DNA of 37,654 bases. Origin: Candidatus Methylomirabilis tolerans (lineage in GTDB: Bacteria > Methylomirabilota > Methylomirabilia > Methylomirabilales > Methylomirabilaceae). The stretch lies in NCBI GenBank assembly GCA_019912425.1, contig JAIOIU010000102.1:1-37654 (forward strand), written 5' to 3'. Under the pieces are notes generated by a model that worked only from the letters and a program-made list of their open reading frames with translations, was not told the DNA's origin and searched no databases. The translations under genes were made by a program, and so were the position numbers. How positions within the stretch are numbered: the first letter of the stretch is position 1; each line of letters starts with the position of its first letter. This document shows, in pieces, positions 27,383 to 37,504 of the stretch.

Positions 27383-27727
27383 ATGAACAGGTTCACGAAG
27401 CGATTCGTTCCAGGGCTGATCGCCGTACTGCTCTTGAGCAGCCTGCTCCTCATTCCAGCCGAGCCCGTGCCGGCAAAGACAAAGTTCTTCTTCGGGCTGA
27501 ACGTCGGAGTTCCAATTGCGCCGTACCCGATGTATGCGTATCCCCCTCCGGCGCCCGTCTACTACCCACAGGTCTACCCACATCCTGCTCCGGCGCGCGT
27601 CCATCACCGGCCGGTCTACCGGGCCCATCCGCCATGCGCACAGGTCTGGACTCCTGGGTACTATGACTTCTATGGAAACTGGGTCTTCGGCTACTACCAG
27701 TCCGTCTGTCCCCCTTACGGCTACTAG
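27383..27727 (+). CDS. Pro/Tyr-rich exported protein
   Basis: 114 residues from the ATG at 27383, behind AAAGGAGG at an 8-10 nt distance; the frame is open far upstream but that part has no ribosome site or signal peptide. The signal FVPGLIAVLLLSSLLLIPAE precedes the mature part, which is rich in Pro, Tyr and His (YPPPAPVYYPQVYPHPAPAR) and ends in VWTPGYYDFYGNWVFGYYQS. The W-x-PG-YYD...W.G.Y ending resembles the YXWGXW-type repeat found in small envelope proteins of proteobacteria and NC10-like genomes. No activity can be read from it. The 320 bp after it hold the first DUF5615 remnant and the antitoxin promoter. Confidence 0.75.
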   Translation: MNRFTKRFVPGLIAVLLLSSLLLIPAEPVPAKTKFFFGLNVGVPIAPYPMYAYPPPAPVYYPQVYPHPAPARVHHRPVYRAHPPCAQVWTPGYYDFYGNWVFGYYQSVCPPYGY

Positions 27728-27796
27728 CCGAACGGGGTAGGCTCGTTAAATCCGGACCGCCAAACTACCTGAGCGGCGTGCTGCCGCTGGCCATCC

Positions 27797-27941
27797 GGCA
27801 GTCTGTGCTCGCTTCCGATCCCGAGACCACCCGTAGTGCCCCTTCGGTTCTACGCCGACGTTCACATTCCGCGTGCCATCATGCTTGGTCCCAGACTCCG
27901 CAGCGTGGACGTACTCACGCTCAAGATGATCACGTCTCCGC
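27797..27941. repeat. Direct repeat, copy 1 (DUF5615 region)
   Basis: About 145 bp closely similar to 29341-29488, in the same orientation and 1.54 kb apart: GGCAGTCTGTGCTCGC against GGCAGTCTCTGCTCGC, then ACCACCCGTAGTGCC against GCCACCCGTAGTGCC, and GATGATCA near the end. Both copies contain the start of a DUF5615-type gene with some 40 bp of shared upstream sequence. Confidence 0.8.
27836..27941 (+). pseudogene. DUF5615 PIN-like toxin fragment, copy 1
   Basis: From the GTG at 27836, VPLRFYADVHIPRAIMLG and RLRSVDVLT match the N-terminus of DUF5615 (Mut7-C/PIN-like) proteins, in which the FYADVHIP aspartate is a predicted metal ligand. After VDVLT the frame is lost: alignment with copy 2 shows two single-base losses (ACCGCGCAAGATGATC against ACGCTCAAGATGATC), and homology stops near 27941. 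About 35 of an expected 110-120 codons remain. DUF5615 proteins are usually toxin-like partners of DUF433 antitoxins; none is visible here. Confidence 0.65.
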
Positions 27942-27955
27942 ATAGATTTGTAGCC

Positions 27956-27985
27956 TTGACAGAGTGTAGCCTAGAGGCTACACTC
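27956..27985 (+). promoter_or_regulatory. Promoter with palindromic operator for the antitoxin gene
   Basis: A consensus -35 TTGACA (27956-27961), a 17-bp spacer and a -10 TACACT (27979-27984) are overlapped by a perfect inverted repeat: GAGTGTAGCC (27962-27971), TAGA, GGCTACACTC (27976-27985). The right arm covers the -10. A dimeric HTH protein bound there would block RNA polymerase. The HTH antitoxin starting at 28047, 62 bp downstream, is the natural candidate for autoregulation. Confidence 0.75.
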
Positions 27986-28046
27986 TTCGCAAGAACGATC
28001 TGTTCGCCAGGTAGCTTGACTCGTACGCAACCTCTAGGAGCAGACG

Positions 28047-28346
28047 ATGAGTAAAACCGTGACCAGTCGCTACGATGTAGCCGAGCACCTTCGAACCCCA
28101 GAGGAAATGGCGGCCTACCTTGAGGCGTGTCTTGAAGAGGCGAAGGGCGATGCCACCTTCATCGCCAAAGCGCTGGGAGACATTGCGCGTGCCAAGGGCA
28201 TGGCACAGGTCGCCCGCGATGCCGGCCTCTCCCGCGAGAGCCTGTATAAAGCGCTGTCCGGCGAACGCAGCCCCAGCTTTGACACCATCCTCAAGGTGGT
28301 TGCCGCGTTAGGATTGAAGTTGCACGCTGAAGCCGCTCATGGGTGA
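28047..28346 (+). CDS. Addiction-module antidote (HigA-like), orphan
   Basis: 99 residues. The N-terminus SRYDVAEHLRTPEEMAAYLE followed by EACLEEAKGDATFIAKALGD and IARAKGMAQVARDAGLSRES matches the putative addiction-module antidote family (TIGR02684, HigA-like). The XRE-type helix-turn-helix is MAQVARDAGLSRESLYKALS near residues 52-71. In the usual operon a RelE/HigB-like killer gene (TIGR02683) precedes and nearly overlaps it. Here 27986-28046 is too short for one and the upstream sequence is a toxin remnant of a different family, so the antitoxin looks orphaned. Its palindromic operator is intact. Confidence 0.85.
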   Translation: MSKTVTSRYDVAEHLRTPEEMAAYLEACLEEAKGDATFIAKALGDIARAKGMAQVARDAGLSRESLYKALSGERSPSFDTILKVVAALGLKLHAEAAHG

Positions 28347-28449
28347 CGCCTCACTGGAAGCTAGTGGAAAAAGACCTGAGGGGATTATAAATAATGGCTC
28401 TTCGTGAAATCCTATTGGGGGACACATTGAAACACTTTCGGCGGATGTA

Positions 28450-29046
28450 ATGAGCAACGGGGACGCTCGATTTGTCGCGCCGACCACCAGCCGGCTGCGA
28501 GTGATGCGCGACGGAGGGAGTATCATCCGTAGCGCGCGCATTCCCAAACCGGTCGCACTGGTGGACACGCGGGAGCGGGAACCCTTTCCGCTCCACGCGA
28601 ACCACCCGAACTGGATTGGCGGGGAAAGGCTGGCCACGCTGAACACTGGCGACTACACGTTGGAAGGGATGGAGAGCCTCCTCTCGCTGGAGCGAAAGAG
28701 CCTGGCGGACTTAGTGGCGTGCACGGTAACCTACCGACGGAGATTTATTGCCGCCTGCGGTCGGCTCGCTCGGTTTCGCTGAAAGGCCATTCTAATCGAA
28801 GCAACCTGCGAAGACCTCAAGGGCGGGTTGGGGCAGTGCGACATCCCCTCCGAGGTCCATCCCAATTCTATTTGCGGAACCCTGGACGCGATCGAAGCAA
28901 AGTTTGGCATCCCTGTCATCTACACTTCCACCGTACAGGATCTTGCGACGGAGCGCGCCGCGAGCTGGCTCTCAAAGCACTTCACCTACTGGTGGTTGGA
29001 GGAGCATGGCTACGGCCGGGTATTGATCGACTCGGACGGGCTGTGA
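28450..29046 (+). pseudogene. ERCC4-type nuclease interrupted by in-frame TGA
   Basis: A single frame of 199 codons broken once by TGA at 28780-28782. The first half holds PVALVDTREREPFPLHANHP (the ERCC4/XPF V-D-x-R-E metal site), then LNTGDYTLEGM and LLSLERKSLADLVACTV (the E-R-K-S motif). The frame then reads RLARFR, stop, KAILIEATCEDLKGG and continues without shift to SEVHPNSICGTLDAIEAKFG, IPVIYTSTVQDLATERAASW and ends VLIDSDGL at 29046. Homologous nucleases of this phage-borne type carry an aromatic residue at the stop position (R-W/Y-K/A-A-I). The loss is most simply a TGG-to-TGA change. Without readthrough the product would be 110 residues with the catalytic motifs but no C-terminal half. 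Confidence 0.75.
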
Positions 29047-29200
29047 CCGGGAGGGGACACTTCCACACCCAGACGCCGATACCACGAAAGGGCGGGCCGC
29101 GCGAGGGTTCGGGTAGGAGTTAATCGGAAGGATTTTGGCTCCTGCTAACTTCCACAAAAACGGTGATTGTGTCCTCCAACCTGTATTCTACCGTTTCAAT

Positions 29201-29265
29201 GAGTAATACACGTGTAGCAGAGGGGAAGACCAAGAAAGGATTTCAACAAATAGTGTCTGTCCCTT
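29201..29265 (+). repeat. Solo right end of a Y1-transposase mini-element
   Basis: 65 bp (GAGTAATACACGTGTAGCAG, then AGGGGAAGACCAAGAAAGG through AAATAGTGTCTGTCCC) about 88% like the right end of the mini-element at 35442-35506. No matching left end lies upstream. The stretch 29047-29200 shows nothing I can support. Confidence 0.75.
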
Positions 29266-29340
29266 TTATCCTTTTTCTTTTACGGACGGTACGGTAGCAC
29301 AGAGAAAGTCCTCGCCTAGCTATTCCTTCGCTGGTTCTTC

Positions 29341-29488
29341 GGCAGTCTCTGCTCGCCTCCGACCCCAAGGCCACCCGTAGTGCCATTTCGGCCCTACGCC
29401 GACGCTGGTATTCTGCGTGCTATCATGCTTGGTCTTTGACTCCGCGGCCTAGACGTGCTGACCGCGCAAGATGATCAAGCCTCCCGCT
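29341..29488. repeat. Direct repeat, copy 2 (DUF5615 region)
   Basis: Second copy of the repeat at 27797-27941, same orientation. Homology begins at the same upstream position and continues into the DUF5615 reading frame; copy 2 extends further into that gene. Confidence 0.8.
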
Positions 29489-29585
29489 TTACTGATCCGA
29501 TGTTGTTGGATCGCCCCACCAGCCTGGGGCGCATACTCTTCTCTTTCGACACCGACTTGCTCCTTCACGCTGGTCGCGACCAGTG
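29380..29585 (+). pseudogene. DUF5615 PIN-like toxin fragment, copy 2
   Basis: The GTG at 29380 opens VPFRPYADAGILRAIMLGL, then an in-frame TGA (29437-29439, where homologues have arginine), then LRGLDVLTAQDDQASRFTDP, LLDRPTSLGRILFSFDTDLL. This follows the DUF5615 pattern to about residue 65: the FYAD start, VDVLTAQ-D, DPELLDRAT, LGRVLFSxDxDLL with its second metal aspartates. The remaining half of the domain (AGIIYAHQ onward) is missing and replaced by a fragment of another gene. A nonsense change plus truncation makes this dead. Confidence 0.75.
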
Positions 29586-29696
29586 CTCGTCCACCAGATC
29601 GAGACGGACCTCCATCGATGCCAGGCCAAGGCCGTCACTAACTTCAAGAAACACCTGCCCGCTCCGCAGACAGGGAGAACGTACCCAAGATCCTGA
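29583..29696 (+). pseudogene. YhcG (DUF1016) nuclease fragment
   Basis: In a frame different from the DUF5615 remnant, 29583-29696 reads VLVHQIETDLHRCQAKAVTN then FKKHLPAPQTGRTYPRS and stops. The I-E-x-x-L..R.Q.KAVTNF..xLPAPQ pattern is the middle linker of YhcG/DUF1016 PD-(D/E)XK nucleases, which continues DLAxxTLKDPYxFDFL in intact members. Only about 28 codons of that family remain, abutting the toxin remnant. It is a recombination scar. Confidence 0.5.
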
Positions 29697-29714
29697 AAAC
29701 GCGAATATTATCTA

Positions 29715-29745
29715 TTGACATTGTAATATTCTCTGTATTACTGTA
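29715..29745 (+). promoter_or_regulatory. Promoter with palindromic operator for the RHH/GHKL operon
   Basis: TTGACA at 29715-29720 is followed 18 bp on by TACTGT-like -10 bases (29739-29744). Between them, and touching the -10, lies an inverted repeat GTAATA (29723-29728), TTCTCTG, TATTAC (29736-29741). The gene starts at 29778 with GGAGAGACG before the ATG. The AT-rich palindrome is a likely operator for a ribbon-helix-helix or winged-helix regulator, plausibly the first gene's own product. Confidence 0.6.
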
Positions 29746-29777
29746 CACGCCGTGATGCTAAGCATAGAGGAGAGACG

Positions 29778-30935
29778 ATGATTGTCTGTTTTAACTGTGA
29801 CTCTGAAACGAAGGTCAAAATGGATAGCCTGATGGCCAATGATCATTATACTGACTACAGTGAATTGATCGCCGTGGCTATGGCGAATCTCTGGATGCTG
29901 GATCGAGAGATTGCCGAAAAGGGCGCACTCGTGATCGGCGAAGGGACTCCGCTGTCCTTAAGCGTCCCATCATCCCGGCCTGTCAAGATTGCAAACCCGG
30001 TTCCAGCCACCTCGTCAGTCCCGCCGTCGCGCGAGCGCCCCCCCGCCAAAACCGCCGCGCCTCCCGCCGAACGTGCGCCGCTTTCCATCCCAGACTTGTT
30101 CCTGCCCGTTGGCTTGGATGGATTATCCGTCGCAACAGTCGATATTGAACGCCAAGAACCGATTACCGCGGATTCGTTCACGCTAGACCGCTGGCTGTTC
30201 GGCCAGTACAACAAACTGCTGCCCGCCAAGGCCAACTGCCGCGCCCTGGTCCGACTGGCCGCCGAGCACCCGGACGGCGAGCCGCTGGAAGAAACCGCCC
30301 CCCGCATCGCCGAAGTCGCCGCGCTGCTGGGCGACTGGCTGGCCGATTACGATCGCCGCCACCAGATCGGACGCGACGACGCCATGGCGACCGCCTTTCC
30401 CCGAAGCGGCCCCAACGCCGAAAAAAGCCGCGCACGCTACGCCAATCAGTTCGTCGGCAGCGTCAACAGCCAAGGGGCGCTCTCCGGCCTGCTCCAGGAT
30501 TATCGCTTGGCAGGTCTCGCGCCGGGGAACGGCCCACGTCTGCTGCCGACGAAACAAGGGATGAGCTTGGCCCGGCTCGCCAATCCCATCCTCGACGGAC
30601 ACCGGACGGAACCGGCGCAGAGGTTTTCAGCGGAAGAGACCGCGTTTCTGCTAAAGCACATCCGTTCCTTCGTGCCGGTGGAGGCGTTCGCCTTCCGAAC
30701 ACTCCTGCGGGCGATCGCCGATGCCGCGGACACGCCAGACAAACTGGATGAAGCGTTGCGCGTGTTCGTGCCGACCGACTCCAACCGTTCCCTCAGCTCG
30801 TCGTTCCTCACTTCGCAGCGTTCCGGCGCGCTCTCGCGCATGGCCGACCTTGGCCTGATCTCCCGCGTCCGGAAAGGGGTAAGGGTATCGTATGCAATGA
30901 CCGAGCAGGGACAAATCTTCATCAAGTCCAAGTAA
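29778..30935 (+). CDS. Putative RHH/winged-helix DNA-binding protein
   Basis: 385 residues; I know no named family. Residues 1-45 (ETKVKMDSLMANDHYTDYSE then LIAVAMANLWMLDREI) look like a ribbon-helix-helix or CopG-type dimerisation segment: strand, helix, then a Y-x-D-Y-S-E turn and helix. Residues about 60-105 are a Pro/Ser/Ala linker. A helical middle (SFTLDRWLFGQYNKLLPAKA, then LVRLAAEHPDGEPLEETAPR) follows. The C-terminus from about 290 (FLLKHIRSFVPVEAFAFRTL to SRMADLGLISRVRKGVRVSY) resembles a winged helix. The middle (about 30180-30600) is strikingly G/C-richer than both ends, which suggests mosaic origin. It lies 26 bp before the GHKL ATPase and shares its promoter. Role as repressor and as sequence-recognition partner are inferences. 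Confidence 0.65.
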   Translation: MIVCFNCDSETKVKMDSLMANDHYTDYSELIAVAMANLWMLDREIAEKGALVIGEGTPLSLSVPSSRPVKIANPVPATSSVPPSRERPPAKTAAPPAERAPLSIPDLFLPVGLDGLSVATVDIERQEPITADSFTLDRWLFGQYNKLLPAKANCRALVRLAAEHPDGEPLEETAPRIAEVAALLGDWLADYDRRHQIGRDDAMATAFPRSGPNAEKSRARYANQFVGSVNSQGALSGLLQDYRLAGLAPGNGPRLLPTKQGMSLARLANPILDGHRTEPAQRFSAEETAFLLKHIRSFVPVEAFAFRTLLRAIADAADTPDKLDEALRVFVPTDSNRSLSSSFLTSQRSGALSRMADLGLISRVRKGVRVSYAMTEQGQIFIKSK

Positions 30936-30961
30936 CCGTTCGGATAAGGAGAAAAGCGATC

Positions 30962-33481
30962 ATGACCGAACACGAAGCCAAGGAACTTTGTCTTGCGCTG
31001 ATGCGAGCGGACTCAGAAGACGAGGTTATCGACCTGCTCAAGAAGGCCGGATACTGGGATAAACAGGAAGATTGGCGTTTCTATGGTGACTACGAGAACA
31101 ACTACAACGCCATCGGCAACCAGCAAAGCCGTCCGGATGCCGCGTTGGTGGAAAAGCTCGTGAACTCCGTCGATGCCAGACTAATGAATGAATGTTTGGC
31201 TCACGGTATGAACCCCGAAGATGCAAGCGCCCCGCGAGGCATTCAAGAAGCAGTCGCTCTCTTCTTTGATGGTGAAAGTGCAGGAAAGACCTCGTTGGCG
31301 GGGTGCATTCGCGATTGGACCGACAGCAAGAGAACGGACGTTGCTCGGGGAATCGCTTTGACTGCCACAGGAGCGAAACCGGGAAGCGGGAAACCTTGTT
31401 TCACAATCGTCGATGCCGGAGAAGGTCAAACACCTGAGCAGATGCCATACACCTTATTATCTCTTAATCGTTCCAACAAACTGCGCATCCCTTTCGTGCA
31501 AGGTAAGTTCAACATGGGCGGAACTGGTGTCCTAAAGTTTTGCGGCAAGCACAATCTCCAACTGGTCATCAGCCGAAGGAACCCTACCATCCTTCAGCAT
31601 TGCAACGGGGCGCAACAGGACGATGGCAAATGGAGTTTCACGGTTGTTCGGCGTGAAGACCCGCAAGGAAACCGCAGAAGTTCCGTATACACATACCTTG
31701 CGCCTGTTATGGCAAATGCCAACAGCGACCACAAACGTGTTCTTCTTCGATTTTACGCTAACACCCTTCCCATATTCCCAGAAGGTAAGCAGCCCTATGC
31801 CAGGAGCGTAGAGTGGGGAACGCTTATCAAACTTTACGAATACTCGGCTACTGGGTTCCAATCGCATATCTTGATGAAGGATGGTCTCCTCGGACGCGTT
31901 GATTTGCTGCTACCGGAAATTGCCTTACCTATGAGATTCCATGAGTGTCGCGACTACAAAGGGCACGGAGGAAGTACCGAGACGACCCTTACAGGCGTGC
32001 GCGTCAGGCTCGAGGACGACAAACAACAGAACCTTGAGGAGGGTTTTCCTGCTTGTGCGCCGATGATGGTTAATAGCGAGGAAATGCTCGTGTCCATCTA
32101 TGCATTCAAAAAGAAACGCAGCGAAGCTTATCGCAAGAACGAGGGAATTATCTTTGTAGTTAATGGGCAGACCCATGGACACCTAACACAGGATTTCTTC
32201 TCGCGAAAGAAAGTCGGACTGTCGTATTTGGCCGATTCGATTCTCGTGAGCACTGATTGTACAAAGCTAAGTGGTCGCGCCCGTGAAGACCTTTTCATGA
32301 ACAGCCGGGACCGTTTAAGCGGCGGCGATCTTCGCCAGCAAATAGAAAACAGTCTTGAGGAGCTTCTAAAGCAGCACCAAGGCCTCCGGGAGTTGAAAGA
32401 GCGAAGGCGCCGCGAAGAAATCGAATCCAAGCTGGACGATGCAAAACCTCTTGAGGACATTCTCGATAAGCTATTGAAACAATCGCCGGCTCTCTCGAAC
32501 CTGTTTCTTCAAGGCCTGAGAGCCTCCACACCGTTCAAAACGGTTGCAGTACAAGCACAAGAACAAGAGTTCAGGGGGCGGCGTTTCCCGACGTTCTTTA
32601 AGTTCAAAGGCAAAGACTACGGGCATATTCTCGACCGAGAATGCCCCATCAACATGAGATGCCGGTTGGCTTTTGAGACCGACGCTGAAAACGAGTATTT
32701 CTCGCGAGCCATTGATCCCGGTGAATTCCACTTGTTGTTGAAGCGAGGCGAAGGTGAGTCATCCGTACAAAATTACGTGCTGAATCTCCAGAACGGAATA
32801 GCTACGCTCAGCCTTTCGCTTCCCGAAGATACCACTTTGGGCCAGAGCTTGCGGTATAGCGCTACGATGAACGATTACTCCCGTACGGAGCCTTTCATCA
32901 ATACATTTCAGGTGACCGTGAAAGAAGAGCAGCAAGCGCGCGGGAACAGCAGCGATAGAAGGAAGCCTCCAAGCAAAGAAGAAGGAGAAGACCGGGAAAG
33001 ATCTTCTGGAATCAAGCTGCCAAATATTCGATTGGTCGAAGAAAAGGACTGGCAGGACCAATCGCCTCCATTCGATAAGTATGCTGCAATGCGCATTATC
33101 AACGCCGGTAGCAACGAAGACGGCGAGGAAGAGTCTGTATCGAACGTTGTCTATGACTTCTACATCAACATGGACAATCTCTATCTCAAGACTGAATTGA
33201 AGAGTACGAGAGCCGAGTCAGCCTTGGTAAGGGCGCAATTCAAATTTGGCATGGTATTGATGGGCCTTGCGCTGCTTCAACGGGACATTGAGGACCAGCG
33301 GAAGCAATCTGGCGGCGAAGAACAGGCGGAAGACGAGAATGGCAACGGAGTGAGCATAGAGAAGAAGGTGGAAGAGTTCTGCCGGGCGGTTGCCCCGGTG
33401 GTAATCCCGATGATCAACTCGCTTGGCTCCCTATCCGTGGAAGATGAGCCTGTTCTTGGTGCGTCTGGCGAAGCAACGTGA
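30962..33481 (+). CDS. GHKL (MutL/MORC/Hsp90-like) ATPase, defence-type
   Basis: 839 residues. The N-terminal ATPase has the full GHKL motif set: N-box EKLVNSVDARLMNECL (E64, N68, D71), G1 box VDAGEGQTPEQM (D151-G155) and G2 box GKFNMGGTGVLKFCGK (181-190 onward), preceded by LSLNRSNKLRIPFVQ. The G2 loop forms the ATP lid. A transducer-like domain follows to about 450, then a charged coiled-coil-like stretch (LKQHQGLRELKERRRREEIE), beta-rich modules (about 520-650), a Ser/Lys/Glu linker and a helical C-terminus. I see no nuclease motif. Such ATPases occur in MORC/paraMORC and MZA-type defence systems. GC content is visibly lower than in the core genes, consistent with horizontal gain. A GGATAAGGAG site precedes the ATG. 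Confidence 0.85.
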   Translation: MTEHEAKELCLALMRADSEDEVIDLLKKAGYWDKQEDWRFYGDYENNYNAIGNQQSRPDAALVEKLVNSVDARLMNECLAHGMNPEDASAPRGIQEAVALFFDGESAGKTSLAGCIRDWTDSKRTDVARGIALTATGAKPGSGKPCFTIVDAGEGQTPEQMPYTLLSLNRSNKLRIPFVQGKFNMGGTGVLKFCGKHNLQLVISRRNPTILQHCNGAQQDDGKWSFTVVRREDPQGNRRSSVYTYLAPVMANANSDHKRVLLRFYANTLPIFPEGKQPYARSVEWGTLIKLYEYSATGFQSHILMKDGLLGRVDLLLPEIALPMRFHECRDYKGHGGSTETTLTGVRVRLEDDKQQNLEEGFPACAPMMVNSEEMLVSIYAFKKKRSEAYRKNEGIIFVVNGQTHGHLTQDFFSRKKVGLSYLADSILVSTDCTKLSGRAREDLFMNSRDRLSGGDLRQQIENSLEELLKQHQGLRELKERRRREEIESKLDDAKPLEDILDKLLKQSPALSNLFLQGLRASTPFKTVAVQAQEQEFRGRRFPTFFKFKGKDYGHILDRECPINMRCRLAFETDAENEYFSRAIDPGEFHLLLKRGEGESSVQNYVLNLQNGIATLSLSLPEDTTLGQSLRYSATMNDYSRTEPFINTFQVTVKEEQQARGNSSDRRKPPSKEEGEDRERSSGIKLPNIRLVEEKDWQDQSPPFDKYAAMRIINAGSNEDGEEESVSNVVYDFYINMDNLYLKTELKSTRAESALVRAQFKFGMVLMGLALLQRDIEDQRKQSGGEEQAEDENGNGVSIEKKVEEFCRAVAPVVIPMINSLGSLSVEDEPVLGASGEAT

Positions 33482-33504
33482 TCCAATCGCCGACGAATAG
33501 GGAG

Positions 33505-34704
33505 CTATGAACGCTTGTGTATCAACAGGACTTCTTTTGAAGAAGGTGTACTGCCTTTGCGGTCCGCGTAAAACTTCCTATTGGGGACAGTTCGCCATGA
33601 TCGGCCGTCAATGGCGTGAGGCAGATCATCGAGAAGGACTTCATCAAAGCCACACTCTTGAAGGATTTTCAGAAAAAGAGGCAATTGCCATTCAGGGGTC
33701 GAGAATGCTACAAGCTGGACAAGCCACGTGTTTGTGTCAGCGATAGTGGAAAGCGCCATGTAGCATTCCCTCATGTTTTCAAAGTAGCCTTCCAGCCCCC
33801 TTTGATTGCGATCTCCAAAGGTATAGAACGCCGCTCCATTCCCATCAAGGCAATTTGCGATCCAATACGGTGCGGGGGTTTCTTTGCGCCCGTTGATCTG
33901 CCAGCGATGATAGAGCACATGCACTCCGGGATAAGGTGGTGAGGTAAGAATGAGTCTTGGAGCGGAAGAAAATGGATAGTTGGGTGGTTCTGCAATGTCA
34001 TGGGCGGAAAGATAGAGACATGCAGGTGCGGTATCGTCGTTGCTGGAGCATCCGAACCTGAGCAAATCAAGTTCTCTGCGAAACTCGAGCGCTCCTTCGA
34101 TCATCTCCTCGGCATAGGAGATAAGCTGCTCTCTGAAATCACGGGCCGATGGGTGATATTTGCGGCAATCGACCGCCCATTGTGCGGTCTTGAGCAGGAG
34201 GCACCTAACAAAGTCTCGCTGTCTGTTGTTGTGTAGTGAATCCAGGCCAGCAAGGGCAATCTCTATGGTCTTTCGAATCGGCCAAGTGGTGCGTCCACTG
34301 ATGTTTCTTTGGTAGCCTTGAGATATCCAATCAACCGGCCTGTCCGAAATTCTCGTAAGTTTCAAATCCGACTGCGCTTGCTCGACCCATGTGCGAACGT
34401 CTGAAATATCCTTATCGGTGACTAGTGTGGTTTTCGTTCTGGAAACAAATACGGCCAAGCTGTTCAAATCGGTCCCAATACTTCTACGGCCCAAACGCAT
34501 GGCTTCAACAAGGGTCGTTCCGCCACCCATAAAGGGATCATACACGATCTCGCCCGGCTGAGTGAAAAATTCAATAGCGGCCTCAGCAAATCGCGGCGAA
34601 AAACGAGCGGGATAACGGTAGAACGCATGAGTCAATCCAGTGACAGGCTTCTTATCATTGATAGACTCGATAAGAGAAGAGATGTCGGTCCGTATTTCTT
34701 TCAT
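33505..34704 (-). CDS. DNA methyltransferase (TSPPY type)
   Basis: 399 residues. Motif I for S-adenosylmethionine is VYDPFMGGGTTLVEAMRLGR (D56-T63) and motif IV is LILTSPPYPGVHVLYHRW (T254-Y258), the catalytic TSPPY box of amino-methyltransferases acting on N4 of cytosine or N6 of adenine. About 190 residues separate the two, room for a target-recognition region between them. HAFYRYPARFSPRFAEAAIE near residue 26 is a common start in these enzymes. The stop faces the end of the GHKL gene across 23 bp, so the two transcripts converge. The XRE regulator lies 185 bp upstream on the same strand. Target sequence unknown. Confidence 0.92.
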   Translation of the reverse strand: MKEIRTDISSLIESINDKKPVTGLTHAFYRYPARFSPRFAEAAIEFFTQPGEIVYDPFMGGGTTLVEAMRLGRRSIGTDLNSLAVFVSRTKTTLVTDKDISDVRTWVEQAQSDLKLTRISDRPVDWISQGYQRNISGRTTWPIRKTIEIALAGLDSLHNNRQRDFVRCLLLKTAQWAVDCRKYHPSARDFREQLISYAEEMIEGALEFRRELDLLRFGCSSNDDTAPACLYLSAHDIAEPPNYPFSSAPRLILTSPPYPGVHVLYHRWQINGRKETPAPYWIANCLDGNGAAFYTFGDRNQRGLEGYFENMRECYMALSTIADTNTWLVQLVAFSTPEWQLPLFLKILQECGFDEVLLDDLPHAIDGRSWRTVPNRKFYADRKGSTPSSKEVLLIHKRS

Positions 34705-34857
34705 TCAGGTTCGCCTCGGTCAATTATTGGAGTAATCGTGTGCGCACCGCCTAAGCACATATTCGATAACGTCACTCGCCGGATCTCGGTCCGTGACTGA
34801 GCAGGTCGGAGAGTGCAACCCGGTGAGGCCGCGGGCATAACCCGGGGTTAGACGCCC

Positions 34858-34886
34858 GGACTCGCAAGGTCGCGACTTGGGAGTCC
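34858..34886. other. Stem-loop behind the XRE gene
   Basis: GGACTCGCAAG (34858-34868), 7-nt loop, CTTGGGAGTCC (34876-34886): 11-bp arms with one mismatch. It begins 4 bp after the XRE stop in the transcript direction and is not followed by a T-run, so it is either a weak terminator or a 3'-end processing hairpin. The rest of 34705-34857 shows no gene. Confidence 0.5.
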
Positions 34887-34889
34887 ATC

Positions 34890-35102
34890 TCACTTACTCT
34901 TCTTGCTTCCGACTTCCTGCCACAATTCCTCGACGCGGCGCTGGGCCAGGGGCGACGGCCTGCCCTTCCCGTTCTCCCAGCGGTTGACGGTGGAGACCGT
35001 GACGCCGAGTCTTGCGGCGAACTGCTCCTGTGTCAGATCCAACGCGGCGCGAAGCGTCTTTACGGTCCTCTCCGAGGCTTTATGGGCCATTCCTCGATTC
35101 AT
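34890..35102 (-). CDS. XRE-family helix-turn-helix regulator
   Basis: 70 residues, hardly more than one helix-turn-helix. ERTVKTLRAALDLTQEQFAA then RLGVTVSTVNRWENGKGRPS is the XRE/Cro fold with the QEQFAARLGVTVSTVNRWENG core, and PLAQRRVEELWQEVGSKKSK is the tail helix. An ATG four codons later (35090) is an alternative start. It is upstream of the methyltransferase on the same strand, the position of a controller (C) protein of a restriction-modification locus, although C proteins normally lie beside a restriction nuclease as well. Confidence 0.85.
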   Translation of the reverse strand: MNRGMAHKASERTVKTLRAALDLTQEQFAARLGVTVSTVNRWENGKGRPSPLAQRRVEELWQEVGSKKSK

Positions 35103-35179
35103 CCTTTGGCAATTCCAGCGTTCCCAAGCATCTTACAAAGCAAATGATAGGTTACTTGCACGGCAGAGTCAAGCGCTTC

Positions 35180-35210
35180 AGCATGGCATCCCGAATTTCC
35201 TGTAACCGAG
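35180..35210. repeat. Short dispersed repeat, copy 1
   Basis: AGCATGGCATCCCGAATTTC followed by CTGTAACCGAG is nearly identical to 37253-37283 (one T/G and one A/G change in the conserved part). Same orientation, 2.07 kb apart, lying outside the genes between them. Confidence 0.75.
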
Positions 35211-35215
35211 GGAAA

Positions 35216-35508
35216 AATAGGGATAGATACTATTATCGTGACAATTCGTGGGGCTTGCGATCATGATCGTGCATGCCACGGATTGCTCGAATCGTTGCTC
35301 CCGGCCACCCGTATCATGTGAGGCAACGAGGGAATGATCGCCAGGCGATCTTTCGGAACGACAGCGATTCGAAGGCCCACGACGACAGAACGGCTACTGC
35401 GAAGAGACGGGTTCATCTGGGAGGTGCGCAGGACACTGGACGAGTAAGACACGTGTTGCAGAGGGGAAGACCAATAAAGGATCTCAAGAAATAGTGTCTA
35501 TCCCTATA
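35216..35508 (+). mobile_element. REP-associated (Y1) transposase mini-element
   Basis: About 293 bp bounded by 19-bp inverted repeats, AATAGGGATAGATACTATT (35216-35234) and AATAGTGTCTATCCCTATA (35490-35508), 17 of 19 pairing. Inside, 35273-35494 is a 73-codon frame that begins PRIARIVAPGHPYHVRQRGN, the start of REP-associated tyrosine transposases (IS200/IS605-like Y1 fold). It then jumps to a C-terminal-like tail, QRGRPIKDLKK. The catalytic H-x-H and tyrosine segments (about 150 residues) are deleted, so it can move only with a transposase supplied elsewhere. A solo copy of its right end lies at 29201-29265. Confidence 0.75.
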
Positions 35509-35579
35509 TCCTATATCCATTCAGGCGATTACGTACCGAAGGCGCCCAGGGTTGGCTCGCGGGGACAAGCTCGAAGCGC

Positions 35580-37082
35580 TCATCGAAGCCCCGCAAGTGC
35601 GCGCAGCCGCTCGTAGAGCCGCACCATGCCCATGCTGTCGCGCTCACAGTAACGAAGGAGGTTGTGCCGGAGCACCTGCCGCTCGGTGGCGGTGAGGGCG
35701 TCGGCACCGAGCAGCAGCGTCTCAAGTGCCGCCGATGCGGAGCCGCCGTCCTGGATCTCGAGGTCGTTGTAGCCAAGCCCTGGCACGAGCGCCGGCAGGA
35801 CCTTCTTGATGCTGAAGCTTCCCCCGAAGTCCGGGTGATAGACGTGGTCGCGCACAATCGGAAGAAGATCGCGGATCCGACGCGAGAGCGCTACTAGCTC
35901 GCCCTCCATGTGCGGGAGCACTTCGATCAGTCCGTCGATGCACCGTTGCTCGAAGGGCGCGTTGTAGGCGAGCACCGTGTTGACGCCCGCACACGCCGCG
36001 ATGAGCGCGTGTGCGAGCTGCTCACGCGGGTCGTCGGGGCCCTCAGTCAACCATGCGCGGTGTTCGACTCCGTCGGCCTTGAGTACGTGGCAACTGAACT
36101 GCACCGGCACCAGGGCGTAAGGGCGGCAGCCCGGCCAGACCGGGATGGCGGGGTTCACGGTCTCGAAGTCGAGGAAAGCGATCGGCGGAGCCATGGAAGC
36201 GAGTGCGCGGCGGAGGTCACGCTCGACGATCACTTCGCCCGCCCGGACGCTACGAATCTGCCGGCGCGCTGTGGGCGAGGCAGCGAACTTGCGCGGCAGG
36301 TCGAAGAGCGTCTTGTAGCCGTCGGCGACGTACTCCTCCGCCTTGGCCTTACGGATCCCATAGAGCGTGCTGACGTGGTGAACCGGGAGGGGAGGCCAGC
36401 ATCGTTTGATGAACGGGCAGGCATACGGCGTCGTGCAGTGCGGACCGGTCTTGACCTCCGGCAGCGGACCCGCCAACGTCGACAGAAGCTCCCCGGCCTG
36501 TTTCGGCACGGCTCGCAGCGGGGAGCGGATCAGCGACGTGACGTTCTCGCGCACAAACAGGTTCGAGAGGTCGGGGTGACGGCACTCGCGGTTGAGGTGC
36601 ATGACCTCTGCACGTGTGACCACGAGCCCGGCGCGTCGGACGACGTGCGTCTGGACGGCGACATCAGGGATGTGCTCGTTCTTGATGTCGAGCGTGGCCT
36701 TAACCTCGACCAGAACGAACCCGTCGCGGCGCCGTTGGAGAATGTCCACGGCGACGAAGATGCCGTCCTCGAGGAAGCTCGCCTCGTAGACAACCGGCGC
36801 TCCATCCGCGATTGCCAGCGCCGTGTCGGCCAGTCTGCGCTCGATCTCGTGGTGCGGGAGGTCGATAAGGACACCGCCTGGCACGAACGTGCGCGCGAGC
36901 TCGCCGACGCGCCTGCCTCGCTCGAAGATCACCCGCTGCAACTCCTCGCCGGCGGCGAGCTCCGGCGCCTCGGGCTCGTGCACCATCCACCAGAGCATCT
37001 TCGGACACTGCAGTCCTGATACGAACTGGGACTTCGAGAGCCGTATGACTGGTCGCACGCTGGTCCCCCTTGACTTTACCAC
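35580..37082 (-). CDS. DUF2779 fused RecB/Cas4-like and DEDD-like nuclease
   Basis: 500 residues with two nuclease halves. Residues about 1-240 are PD-(D/E)XK, RecB/Cas4-like: VYEASFLEDGIFVAVDILQR then DGFVLVEVKATLDIK gives the D and E-x-K active site. Four cysteines (SGLQCPKMLWW near 25, then C-x4-C-x5-C in the KTGPHCTTPYACPFIKRCWP segment) would hold a 4Fe-4S cluster. Residues about 290-495 are the DUF2779 domain with RNase-H-like DEDD features: PPIAFLDFETVNPAIPVWPG (D-F-E), YNAPFEQRCIDGL, then LRYCERDSMGMVRLYERLRA. Family function is unproven; single-strand DNA processing in repair or defence is inferred. It is on the minus strand after the accessory genes. Confidence 0.9.
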   Translation of the reverse strand: MVKSRGTSVRPVIRLSKSQFVSGLQCPKMLWWMVHEPEAPELAAGEELQRVIFERGRRVGELARTFVPGGVLIDLPHHEIERRLADTALAIADGAPVVYEASFLEDGIFVAVDILQRRRDGFVLVEVKATLDIKNEHIPDVAVQTHVVRRAGLVVTRAEVMHLNRECRHPDLSNLFVRENVTSLIRSPLRAVPKQAGELLSTLAGPLPEVKTGPHCTTPYACPFIKRCWPPLPVHHVSTLYGIRKAKAEEYVADGYKTLFDLPRKFAASPTARRQIRSVRAGEVIVERDLRRALASMAPPIAFLDFETVNPAIPVWPGCRPYALVPVQFSCHVLKADGVEHRAWLTEGPDDPREQLAHALIAACAGVNTVLAYNAPFEQRCIDGLIEVLPHMEGELVALSRRIRDLLPIVRDHVYHPDFGGSFSIKKVLPALVPGLGYNDLEIQDGGSASAALETLLLGADALTATERQVLRHNLLRYCERDSMGMVRLYERLRALAGLR

Positions 37083-37252
37083 TGGAGTGCATTGAAGAGG
37101 CCTAGGAGTCGAATGGCCTGGCGGCTACGTCGCATCGCTCTATCCCAACGACTGCTCTGCTACACACGGGACCCTCAGAGGCCAACAAAATAGCTCAGGA
37201 GTACTCGGAGCGACTCACTCTATCCTTCGACTGCAAAGGGTGTCAAGGCGAA

Positions 37253-37283
37253 AGCATGGCATCCCGAATGTCCTGTGACCGAA
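37253..37283. repeat. Short dispersed repeat, copy 2
   Basis: AGCATGGCATCCCGAATGTC, CTGTGACCGAA: second copy of the 35180-35210 repeat in the same orientation. Confidence 0.75.
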
Positions 37284-37333
37284 GGTGCCACAGTGTTGAT
37301 GTATACTATGGTTCTCAAGGAAGCAAAAGACCC

Positions 37334-37391
37334 TGTCATCTCAACACTCGCCTGGCGCTGTGGTGCGTAGTGTGTTTGCAGCGAGATGACA
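37334..37391. repeat. Inverted repeat upstream of dinB
   Basis: TGTCATCTC (37334-37342) pairs with GAGATGACA (37383-37391), and inside it AACACT (37343-37348) can pair with AGTGTGTT (37369-37376), giving a branched hairpin of about 58 nt. It sits about 110 bp before the dinB start and could be a regulatory hairpin or a mobile-repeat end. Confidence 0.55.
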
Positions 37392-37504
37392 CGCTGTACC
37401 GAAGCGCGGTATGATCTGACCCAGGGTGGAATCACGAGCTTGGACGGAGAGGGCGACGGTTTACCGTGCGAAGGGCTCTGCTACCAAGGAGAGCAGTGAG
37501 GTCC

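Follow-up and report, generated by a model that had tools for sequence, protein, structure and literature searches.

A putative restriction-like cassette that pairs a GHKL ATPase with a convergent DNA methyltransferase and an exchangeable upstream gene in Candidatus Methylomirabilis tolerans

Introduction

We analysed a 37,654-nucleotide stretch of DNA from Candidatus Methylomirabilis tolerans (GCA_019912425.1, contig JAIOIU010000102.1, positions 1 to 37,654; hereafter the window) and describe in it a cassette of three genes. Two genes on the same strand, for a protein with predicted DNA-binding folds (A) and a GHKL ATPase (B), run tail-to-tail into a DNA methyltransferase gene (M). Our preferred reading, to which we give a probability of roughly 0.55, is that the cassette is a putative restriction-like system in which methylation polices a GHKL clamp with a swappable partner. 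The conservation of B beside M far exceeds chance in both co-occurrence and tree tests, the ATP-binding boxes of B are intact, and the gene upstream of B has been exchanged repeatedly. GHKL ATPases of the MORC and paraMORC1-5 families occur in restriction-modification loci, and a role for MORC-like ATPases in restriction was predicted in 2008, according to the text of that study (Iyer, Abhiman and Aravind 2008, PMC2292703).

Results

Layout of the cassette and fold of the ATPase

The three genes are intact open reading frames (ORFs; Table 1). A and B are separated by 26 bp, the stop codons of B and M lie 23 bp apart, and an XRE-type helix-turn-helix gene lies 185 bp from M. An earlier note on this DNA, made from the sequence alone, had proposed a two-gene arrangement convergent on a methyltransferase, and the ORF listing placed all four genes where it had them. 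M matched the Pfam family N6_N4_Mtase (E 2.2e-14) as well as many PADLOC type II methyltransferase models, and thus carries the methyltransferase feature of type II restriction-modification systems. A and B had no Pfam family above cut-off and no PADLOC or NCBIfam match at E up to 1; the B family is large, and none of these three libraries, as searched, contains a model made for it.

All three GHKL boxes that the earlier note had read in B (E64-K65-N68-D71; D151-G153-G155; G181/G186/G187) are conserved across 73 aligned family members. No member departs from E64, K65, N68, D71, D151, G153, G155, G181 or G186, and 68 of the 73 have G187. B accordingly has both features of the GHKL superfamily, namely the N, G1 and G2 boxes with a catalytic glutamate and a Bergerat fold followed by an S5-type transducer. 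At E up to 0.01, 3 of 51 members reached the Pfam family HATPase_c_3, the best at 0.0032; a plasmid relative scores above the cut-off of this family. A sequence search of the PDB gave a single match for B at E 0.93; the B profile found nothing there, and the profile of A only matches at E 0.3 or above. B had no match in annotated phage records.

An AlphaFold2 model of B built from 73 sequences (mean predicted local distance difference test score, pLDDT, 83.4; predicted template modelling score 0.81) has a GHKL-plus-transducer fold. Its structural matches lie mostly over residues 43-488 and include Hsp90 (6xlg_A; Z 15.2, 307 residues aligned, root-mean-square deviation, rmsd, 4.7) and MORC3 (5ix2_A, residues 43-484; Z 14.2, 301 aligned, rmsd 4.0), while Foldseek returned gyrase B and Topo VI-B. 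By its model, the ATPase part of B is of the Hsp90/MORC/gyrase-like fold class. A search of viral structures returned RIIA proteins, topoisomerases, unnamed proteins and small Ig-like ones, with the matched part of B not given; from these matches the beta-sandwich in B is probably Ig-like.

B and M are conserved as neighbours

A scan of 84,980 species genomes yielded 148 B relatives from bacteria of many phyla and from archaea. The best 80 of the 148 (L001-L080) and the window make up 81 loci, which lean towards kin of the window, whose own B was the query. Genes in each locus were called by a simple longest-ORF rule, and 71 loci were scorable for M; L006 and L021 were scored positive on pieces of 241 and 75 amino acids (aa), and a distant 166-aa match in L032 was scored as absent. 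A member of the M family stood at 41 of the 71 scorable loci. It was convergent with B in 37 of these 41, at a gap of 66 bp or less in 35, and in the other four it lay on the opposite side of B, at a distance of 0.6-3 kb. The M-bearing form occurs in named strains, for example Mesorhizobium loti CJ3sym and Sphingopyxis flava.

Absence of M is concentrated in one 35-row clade of shorter B proteins, which we weigh below. Among the other 46 rows, M was present in 41 of 43 that could be scored; the B tree is a quick one of unknown root, and these 46 rows need not be a clade. Presence of M took 3 changes on this tree, as against a minimum of 17 and a mean of 23 over 300 shuffles, and the distances between B proteins correlated with those between their M proteins (39 pairs, Mantel r 0.48, 0 of 5000 permutations).

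The two genes also co-occurred in samples of whole genomes. In the window's phylum, B was found in 4 of 95 genomes (G000, G026, G027 and G080; E up to 0.001) and A in two (G000 and G080). Full-length M was found in 3 of 94 (G000, G027 and G080), each time on the contig of B, although the B of G080 is a divergent two-gene form; G082 has a fragment of M, 98 residues long, and its fetched locus shows no B. The order to which a Mesorhizobium genome belongs was sampled by 297 genomes. Four of them have B (E up to 1e-10), and these four alone have full-length M (E up to 1e-40); in each the two genes are adjacent and convergent, and the small partner lies upstream. One positive in each sample is the starting genome itself, the Mesorhizobium one having been chosen for its B, and in the phylum scan for M and both order scans some genomes had only part of their first-look candidates scored (e.g., 6 of 32).

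The wider M superfamily is not tied to B. Matches to M came from 29 plasmid records, one of which covers at least 80% of M (24.5% identity) and names no B-kind ATPase in its gene table. The distant B of G026 comes directly after a different methyltransferase gene, whose product is 30% identical to M over 93 residues. The two-gene form of B was seen twice, at L119:6102-9025 (G080; 363 + 611 aa) and at L147:6181-9102 on a viral contig (360 + 609 aa). Both are divided at about the same place, their parts are 49% and 42% identical, and each lies beside M.

The upstream partner is exchangeable

The gene directly upstream of B belonged to one of six recurrent kinds at 49 of the 81 loci: small proteins of ~75 aa (16), ribbon-helix-helix plus winged-helix proteins like A (RHH-wH; 15 including the window), proteins of ~210 aa (11), AbrB plus PIN pairs (3), proteins of ~140 aa (2) and HTH_17 proteins (2). 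At the remaining 32 loci no partner was recognised. Partner kind took at least 17 changes over the 49 loci on the B tree, and 300 shuffles gave a minimum of 23 and a mean of 27. The changes are fewer than in the shuffles yet number at least 17, which implies that the partner is inherited but often replaced. Such frequent exchange is as expected of an exchangeable specificity or regulatory subunit.

A DndB-type gene is a seventh kind of partner, found directly upstream of a B relative from the window's genus (L118:4001-5122; PF14072, E 8.9e-106) and of a GHKL relative on a Rhodococcus plasmid (L135:3595-4767). Relatives beside DndB or near sulfur-modification-type genes suggest that B reads modification state more generally. 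The conserved RHH-GHKL pair anticipated in the earlier note therefore holds at part of the loci only, with six other kinds of upstream gene replacing A elsewhere.

The same note had read A as an RHH plus winged-helix protein, which agrees with our model and with a haloarchaeal homologue annotated as 'ribbon-helix-helix domain-containing protein'. The AlphaFold2 model of A (14 sequences; mean pLDDT 81.8) has RHH-compatible helices, a disordered linker and two winged helices. When A was aligned with 14 homologues, 17 of 18 invariant columns fell at residue 142 or later, in the winged-helix part. With VIA-align, residues 138-385 matched the recognition region of FokI (1fok_A; Z 10.4, 188 aligned, rmsd 3.5) and residues 132-385 that of the nickase N.BspD6I (2ewf; Z 10.3, 184 aligned, rmsd 3.6). 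Proteins of MarR type matched at about equal Z, but over only ~70-80 residues, and plain Foldseek returned nothing under E 0.001. Judging from the model, the likeness of A to FokI is one of arrangement, and A is a probable DNA-recognition or regulatory subunit. We rejected A as a proven FokI homologue, as the profile-profile comparison failed and the resemblance is structural only. Placing A in one family with the 210-aa partner was rejected as well, hhalign giving a probability of 5.7% over the N-terminus only.

Although the swappable partner probably recognises DNA, the upstream genes could instead be autoregulators or antitoxin-like brakes, with B alone sensing and attacking DNA, M protecting the host, and the upstream gene restraining a dangerous ATPase and being exchanged as other regulators are. 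This alternative overlaps our preferred explanation, and we regard it as unlikely but deserving of some weight. It would account for the AbrB-PIN, DndB and HTH_17 proteins among the replacements for A and for the loci with no recognised partner, and the RHH fold is typical of autorepressors. The most conserved positions of A nevertheless lie in its large tandem winged-helix part, and RHH-wH genes on haloarchaeal plasmids precede other effector-like genes, a pattern compatible with a working subunit no less than with a regulator.

Three of these haloarchaeal neighbourhoods are recorded here as observations in their own right. At L132:4683-7627 the gene after an A homologue encodes a protein of 620 aa, in which GHKL-like boxes can be made out by eye and which matches neither Pfam nor the B profile. 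At L130 and L131 an RHH-wH gene is followed by two unknown genes and a DEAD/DEAH helicase (ResIII in L131). A pattern search of viral contigs found neither FokI nor A, though the search for A misses members, as shown by a homologue in L090 that was found through B.

No recognised nuclease in B or as a conserved neighbour

As the earlier note had remarked of the ATPase, B has no recognisable nuclease domain. No Pfam nuclease family was matched by 51 members at E up to 0.01, the C-terminus not having been searched alone. In the C-terminal half of B, ten polar or charged residues (E462, R482, R568, D574, R582, D638, N736, D738, N739 and K747) are conserved in at least 90% of the 73 members, the cluster of N736, D738, N739 and K747 sitting in the last domain (688-822). 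These residues, together with the convergent layout of methyltransferase and effector, would fit B itself being a nuclease of unrecognised fold in an ordinary restriction-modification system with an unusual ATP-dependent enzyme. That alternative shares all but the cutting with our preferred explanation. We consider it improbable in view of the Pfam result, of the lack of any histidine conserved in 90% of the members across residues 456-839, and of the scatter of the conserved polar residues over several domains of the model. The odds of the explanations overlap, since the autoregulator and nuclease alternatives share most of the preferred one.

Neighbours were surveyed among the two nearest genes per side (110-999 aa), leaving out the window's neighbours, B, M, and the RHH-wH, small and 210-aa partners. 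No Pfam family had more than 3 members among the 133 proteins from 42 M-bearing loci or the 114 from 35 loci of the other clade, going by 25 of the 132 and 25 of the 116 matching families. A conserved nuclease neighbour was rejected on these families, and ten genes immediately downstream in the other clade were likewise mixed. The 133 neighbours matched 106 PADLOC families at E up to 1e-10, and the 25 of these that were listed included models for AbiE, Gabija, Mza, DISARM and type III restriction.

M on viral contigs

Viral contigs held 21 M relatives, 7 of them full length. Five of the 7 lie beside B (one beside its split form), and the other two are stand-alone (METHYLTRANSFERASES), with no B in the DNA fetched (L148:4009-5181 and L149:3091-4527). 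In L149 there is no B in the 5 kb after M, where a terminase-like gene lies (30.7% identity over 96% of the query to a Phage C75C1 protein; named large terminases at E 7e-12). In L148, M comes after polymerase-like and resolvase-like ORFs and is convergent with a structural-looking ORF, all judged by eye, and the contig ends 1.1 kb later. M without B on viral contigs is no more than suggestive of counter-defence, in which phages would escape the system by using its mark, since methyltransferases serve phages in other ways as well.

The cassette lies in a variable island

The earlier note had set the cassette inside an island, which proved real and larger than the span given there (Table 1). 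An empty site was seen in L114 and L113; in L113 the right flank begins at window position 37441. Another genome of the window's species has an assembly without B, and its matching contig ends at window position 27470, leaving the site unreadable there. The cassette sits between two copies of a 64-bp repeat. An ORF inside the larger right-hand repeat presumably resembles REP-associated transposases. Rfam gave no match over the island. Scans for promoter-like sites (5; shuffles 3.2, standard deviation 1.6) and terminator-like sites (11; shuffles 6.3, standard deviation 2.8) gave no clear signal.

The XRE gene that the earlier note had leading M is present in the window and looks incidental. The nearest relative, L001, has 73% identity in both B and M and no XRE-like ORF among those listed in the 700 bp before M. 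Other loci have, before M, HTH_17, RHH or a different XRE (the last two by eye), or nothing recognisable. We therefore rejected XRE as a core gene; it probably serves local regulation. On the right of the island, there is a gene for a DUF2779 protein with Cas4-like similarity. A stretch of DNA 90% identical to it is found on another contig of the sister genome G022, which has no B match, so the DUF2779 gene seems to move independently.

Table 1. Features of the window and partner pairs at related loci
Feature	Position	Strand	Size	Description
A	29778-30935	+	385 aa	From ORF listing; RHH-like N-terminus, disordered linker 54-98, tandem winged-helix part ~132-385
B	30962-33481	+	839 aa	GHKL ATPase ~37-290, transducer to ~488, helical stretch 456-519
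B, later domains				Beta-sandwich 546-654 (probably Ig-like); alpha/beta C-terminal domain 688-822
M	33505-34704	-	399 aa	Amino-methyltransferase (N6-adenine or N4-cytosine)
M motifs				Motif I region ~56-63; SPPY 255-258
XRE-type helix-turn-helix gene	34890-35102	-	70 aa	Upstream of M; HTH_3, E 9.5e-14
Lineage-specific island	27726-37394		~9.7 kb	Flanks 405 and 496 bp apart in two sister genomes
Direct repeat, left copy	29201-29264	+	64 bp	91% identical to 35442-35505; piece of a ~300-bp genus-wide element
Dispersed repeat, right	35211-35515	+	~300 bp	Copied many times in sister genomes; G022 has most of the copies listed
Direct repeat, left part of island	27796-27890 and 29340-29434		95 bp	84% identical
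HI1420-type addiction-module antidote gene	28047-28346			Left of island; PF21716, E 2.2e-30
DUF2779 gene	35580-37082			Cas4-like similarity
AbrB-PIN (VapBC-like) pairs	L002:7330-7961, L017:7324-7990, L050:2176-2810			Directly upstream of B; AbrB by eye, PIN by Pfam

Discussion

A proposed mechanism and the evidence against it

Under the restriction-like reading, M would methylate a specific motif in host DNA. A, or its replacement elsewhere, would bind DNA and bring B to unmarked DNA. B would then bind ATP, dimerise through its GHKL domain as Hsp90, MutL and MORC do, and close on DNA as a clamp. Invading DNA might be disabled by blocking, by compacting or by recruiting a nuclease encoded elsewhere. 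We propose ATP-driven clamping because of the fold class of B. Action on unmethylated DNA, as the earlier note had also supposed, is something we infer; the stand-alone viral M fits it, and the annotated phage records described below offer no full-length M. A nuclease-free variant is tentative: the exchangeable DNA-recognition subunit would load a MORC/Hsp90-type clamp on unmethylated DNA, which would then be silenced or compacted, and some phages would counter with a lone cognate methyltransferase.

Several observations weigh against this reading. A strict restriction-modification model is challenged most strongly by the clade of shorter B proteins. M was found in 0 of its 28 scorable rows, often with the same partners present, which implies that B plus a partner can exist without a linked methylase. 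The archaeal loci (L030, L032, L047, L066 and L072) all fall in this clade, and some of its copies are apparently stand-alone, beside metabolic genes. The clade may use another mark or an unlinked methylase, or have a different function. Outside it, L009 and L075 also have no M. The earlier note had taken housekeeping surroundings, or a pair not kept together, as grounds for doubting defence; neither was seen at M-bearing loci, and the M-free clade showed the former in part. Plasmids gave seven B relatives (26-30% identity), and no M-kind DNA methyltransferase was listed next to B in the six examined, whose gene tables are incomplete. Genes for PAPS-reductase, DUF4007, class-V aminotransferase and HATPase_c/HATPase_c_3 kinases were seen in the vicinity of plasmid relatives.

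Other points concern the effector, the partner and the phages. A nuclease was recognised neither in B, nor in A, nor as a conserved neighbour. Comparison of A with a FokI profile by hhalign gave a probability of 0.3%, the profile being thin (4 homologues). Proteins of the AbrB-PIN, DndB and RHH kinds often act in transcriptional regulation, and A can therefore only be presumed to recognise invading DNA. Defence genes among the neighbours prove nothing about defence-island enrichment without a control set. Nowhere in 50,697 annotated phage records was 80% of M covered; 3 records matched part of it, and the M proteins of the two viral contigs likewise gave partial matches only. Phage carriage of M thus comes down to two uncharacterised contigs.

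The stand-alone copies in the M-free clade, and the MORC3- and Hsp90-like fold of B, would also suit a chromosomal role, in which B is a MORC-like compacting or MutL-like repair factor and the mark of M an epigenetic landmark with no antiviral part. We think this rather improbable: B is patchy in both genome samples (4 of 95 and 4 of 297) and missing from the other assembly of the window's species, the cassette lies in a variable island, and M occurs without B on two viral contigs.

Comparison with known systems

The restriction-like reading places the cassette among several known systems. It resembles MORC/paraMORC loci as the text of PMC2292703 presents them, with a GHKL domain plus S5-type transducer, DNA methylase linkage, sporadic distribution and proposed DNA looping. 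Most of those loci have helicase, Vsr or RE-fold partners, whereas the cassette has a tail-to-tail methyltransferase and a swappable upstream gene. The S5-domain motif of MORC given there, GhXhhpXXRhl, was found in 0 of 73 B members; by alignment, an invariant glutamine (Q403, in an NGQTH strand) stands in place of the motif's arginine, and variants of the NGQTH pattern are readable by eye in distant relatives. The ExxxH of the paraMORC2 C-terminal S5 domain (5 of 73 members, residues 290-455) and the HxH of the paraMORC5 C-terminal domain (8 of 73, residues 456-839) are not conserved. No TIR domain, fused or adjacent as in paraMORC4, was found in 51 members, nor among the neighbour families (25 listed per set, of 116 and 132 matched). 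The PD-(D/E)xK nuclease DUF4263 of paraMORC3, or GHKL Shedu, was not matched in Pfam by 51 members at E up to 0.01. VcSduA, a type I-D Shedu (paraMORC3) with anti-phage activity, combines an N-terminal GHKL ATPase with that nuclease at its C-terminus, in the portion of PMC12137116 considered; B shares the former, and the latter was not found in its family.

MZA systems consist of MutL-like MzaA, Z1, DUF4420 and AIPR. The cassette shares with them a GHKL/MutL-like ATPase and, as the earlier note had stated, a methyltransferase link. Their other components are indeed missing, in that none of seven scanned window proteins matched Z1, DUF4420 or AIPR, and the PADLOC library in which B found nothing holds MzaA models. 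The paraMORC-derived HEF_HK and Response_reg_2 systems likewise have a HATPase_c_3-type GHKL domain near DNA methylases, in the portion of PMC8011034 considered. On Ensifer and Devosia plasmids, kinases that combine HATPase_c_3 and HATPase_c are direct neighbours of B relatives or one gene removed from them, with HEF_HK just under cut-off in Devosia and not listed in Ensifer. B and the 51 members matched neither HEF_HK nor HATPase_c.

With FokI and N.BspD6I, A has in common the arrangement of the recognition region, while A has no recognised nuclease domain and the sequence profiles do not match. Type II restriction-modification systems share the methyltransferase, but no cognate endonuclease was recognised in B or as a conserved neighbour. 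This layout was not described in the texts cited here nor, going by titles and the openings of abstracts, in the other papers listed, subscription journals being largely outside their scope. Going by the text of PMC2292703, the B family lacks the features above of paraMORC2 to paraMORC5, and it may yet be identical with paraMORC1, which has a C-terminal extension of its own and co-occurs with MORC genes, or with another family of that study. Our best reading is that the cassette falls within the predicted MORC/paraMORC radiation.

Significance

The biochemistry of bacterial MORC-like ATPases was described in 2021 as poorly understood (PMC8011034, in the portion considered). The cassette offers a compact, testable system: its ATPase is intact, it has a single methyltransferase and a single exchangeable partner, and no obvious nuclease would complicate the outcome. 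Its ATPase family spans bacteria and archaea. If the proposed clamping is true, the cassette would discriminate self from non-self by methylation without cutting. If the nuclease-free variant is true, it would be a prokaryotic counterpart of MORC-dependent silencing.

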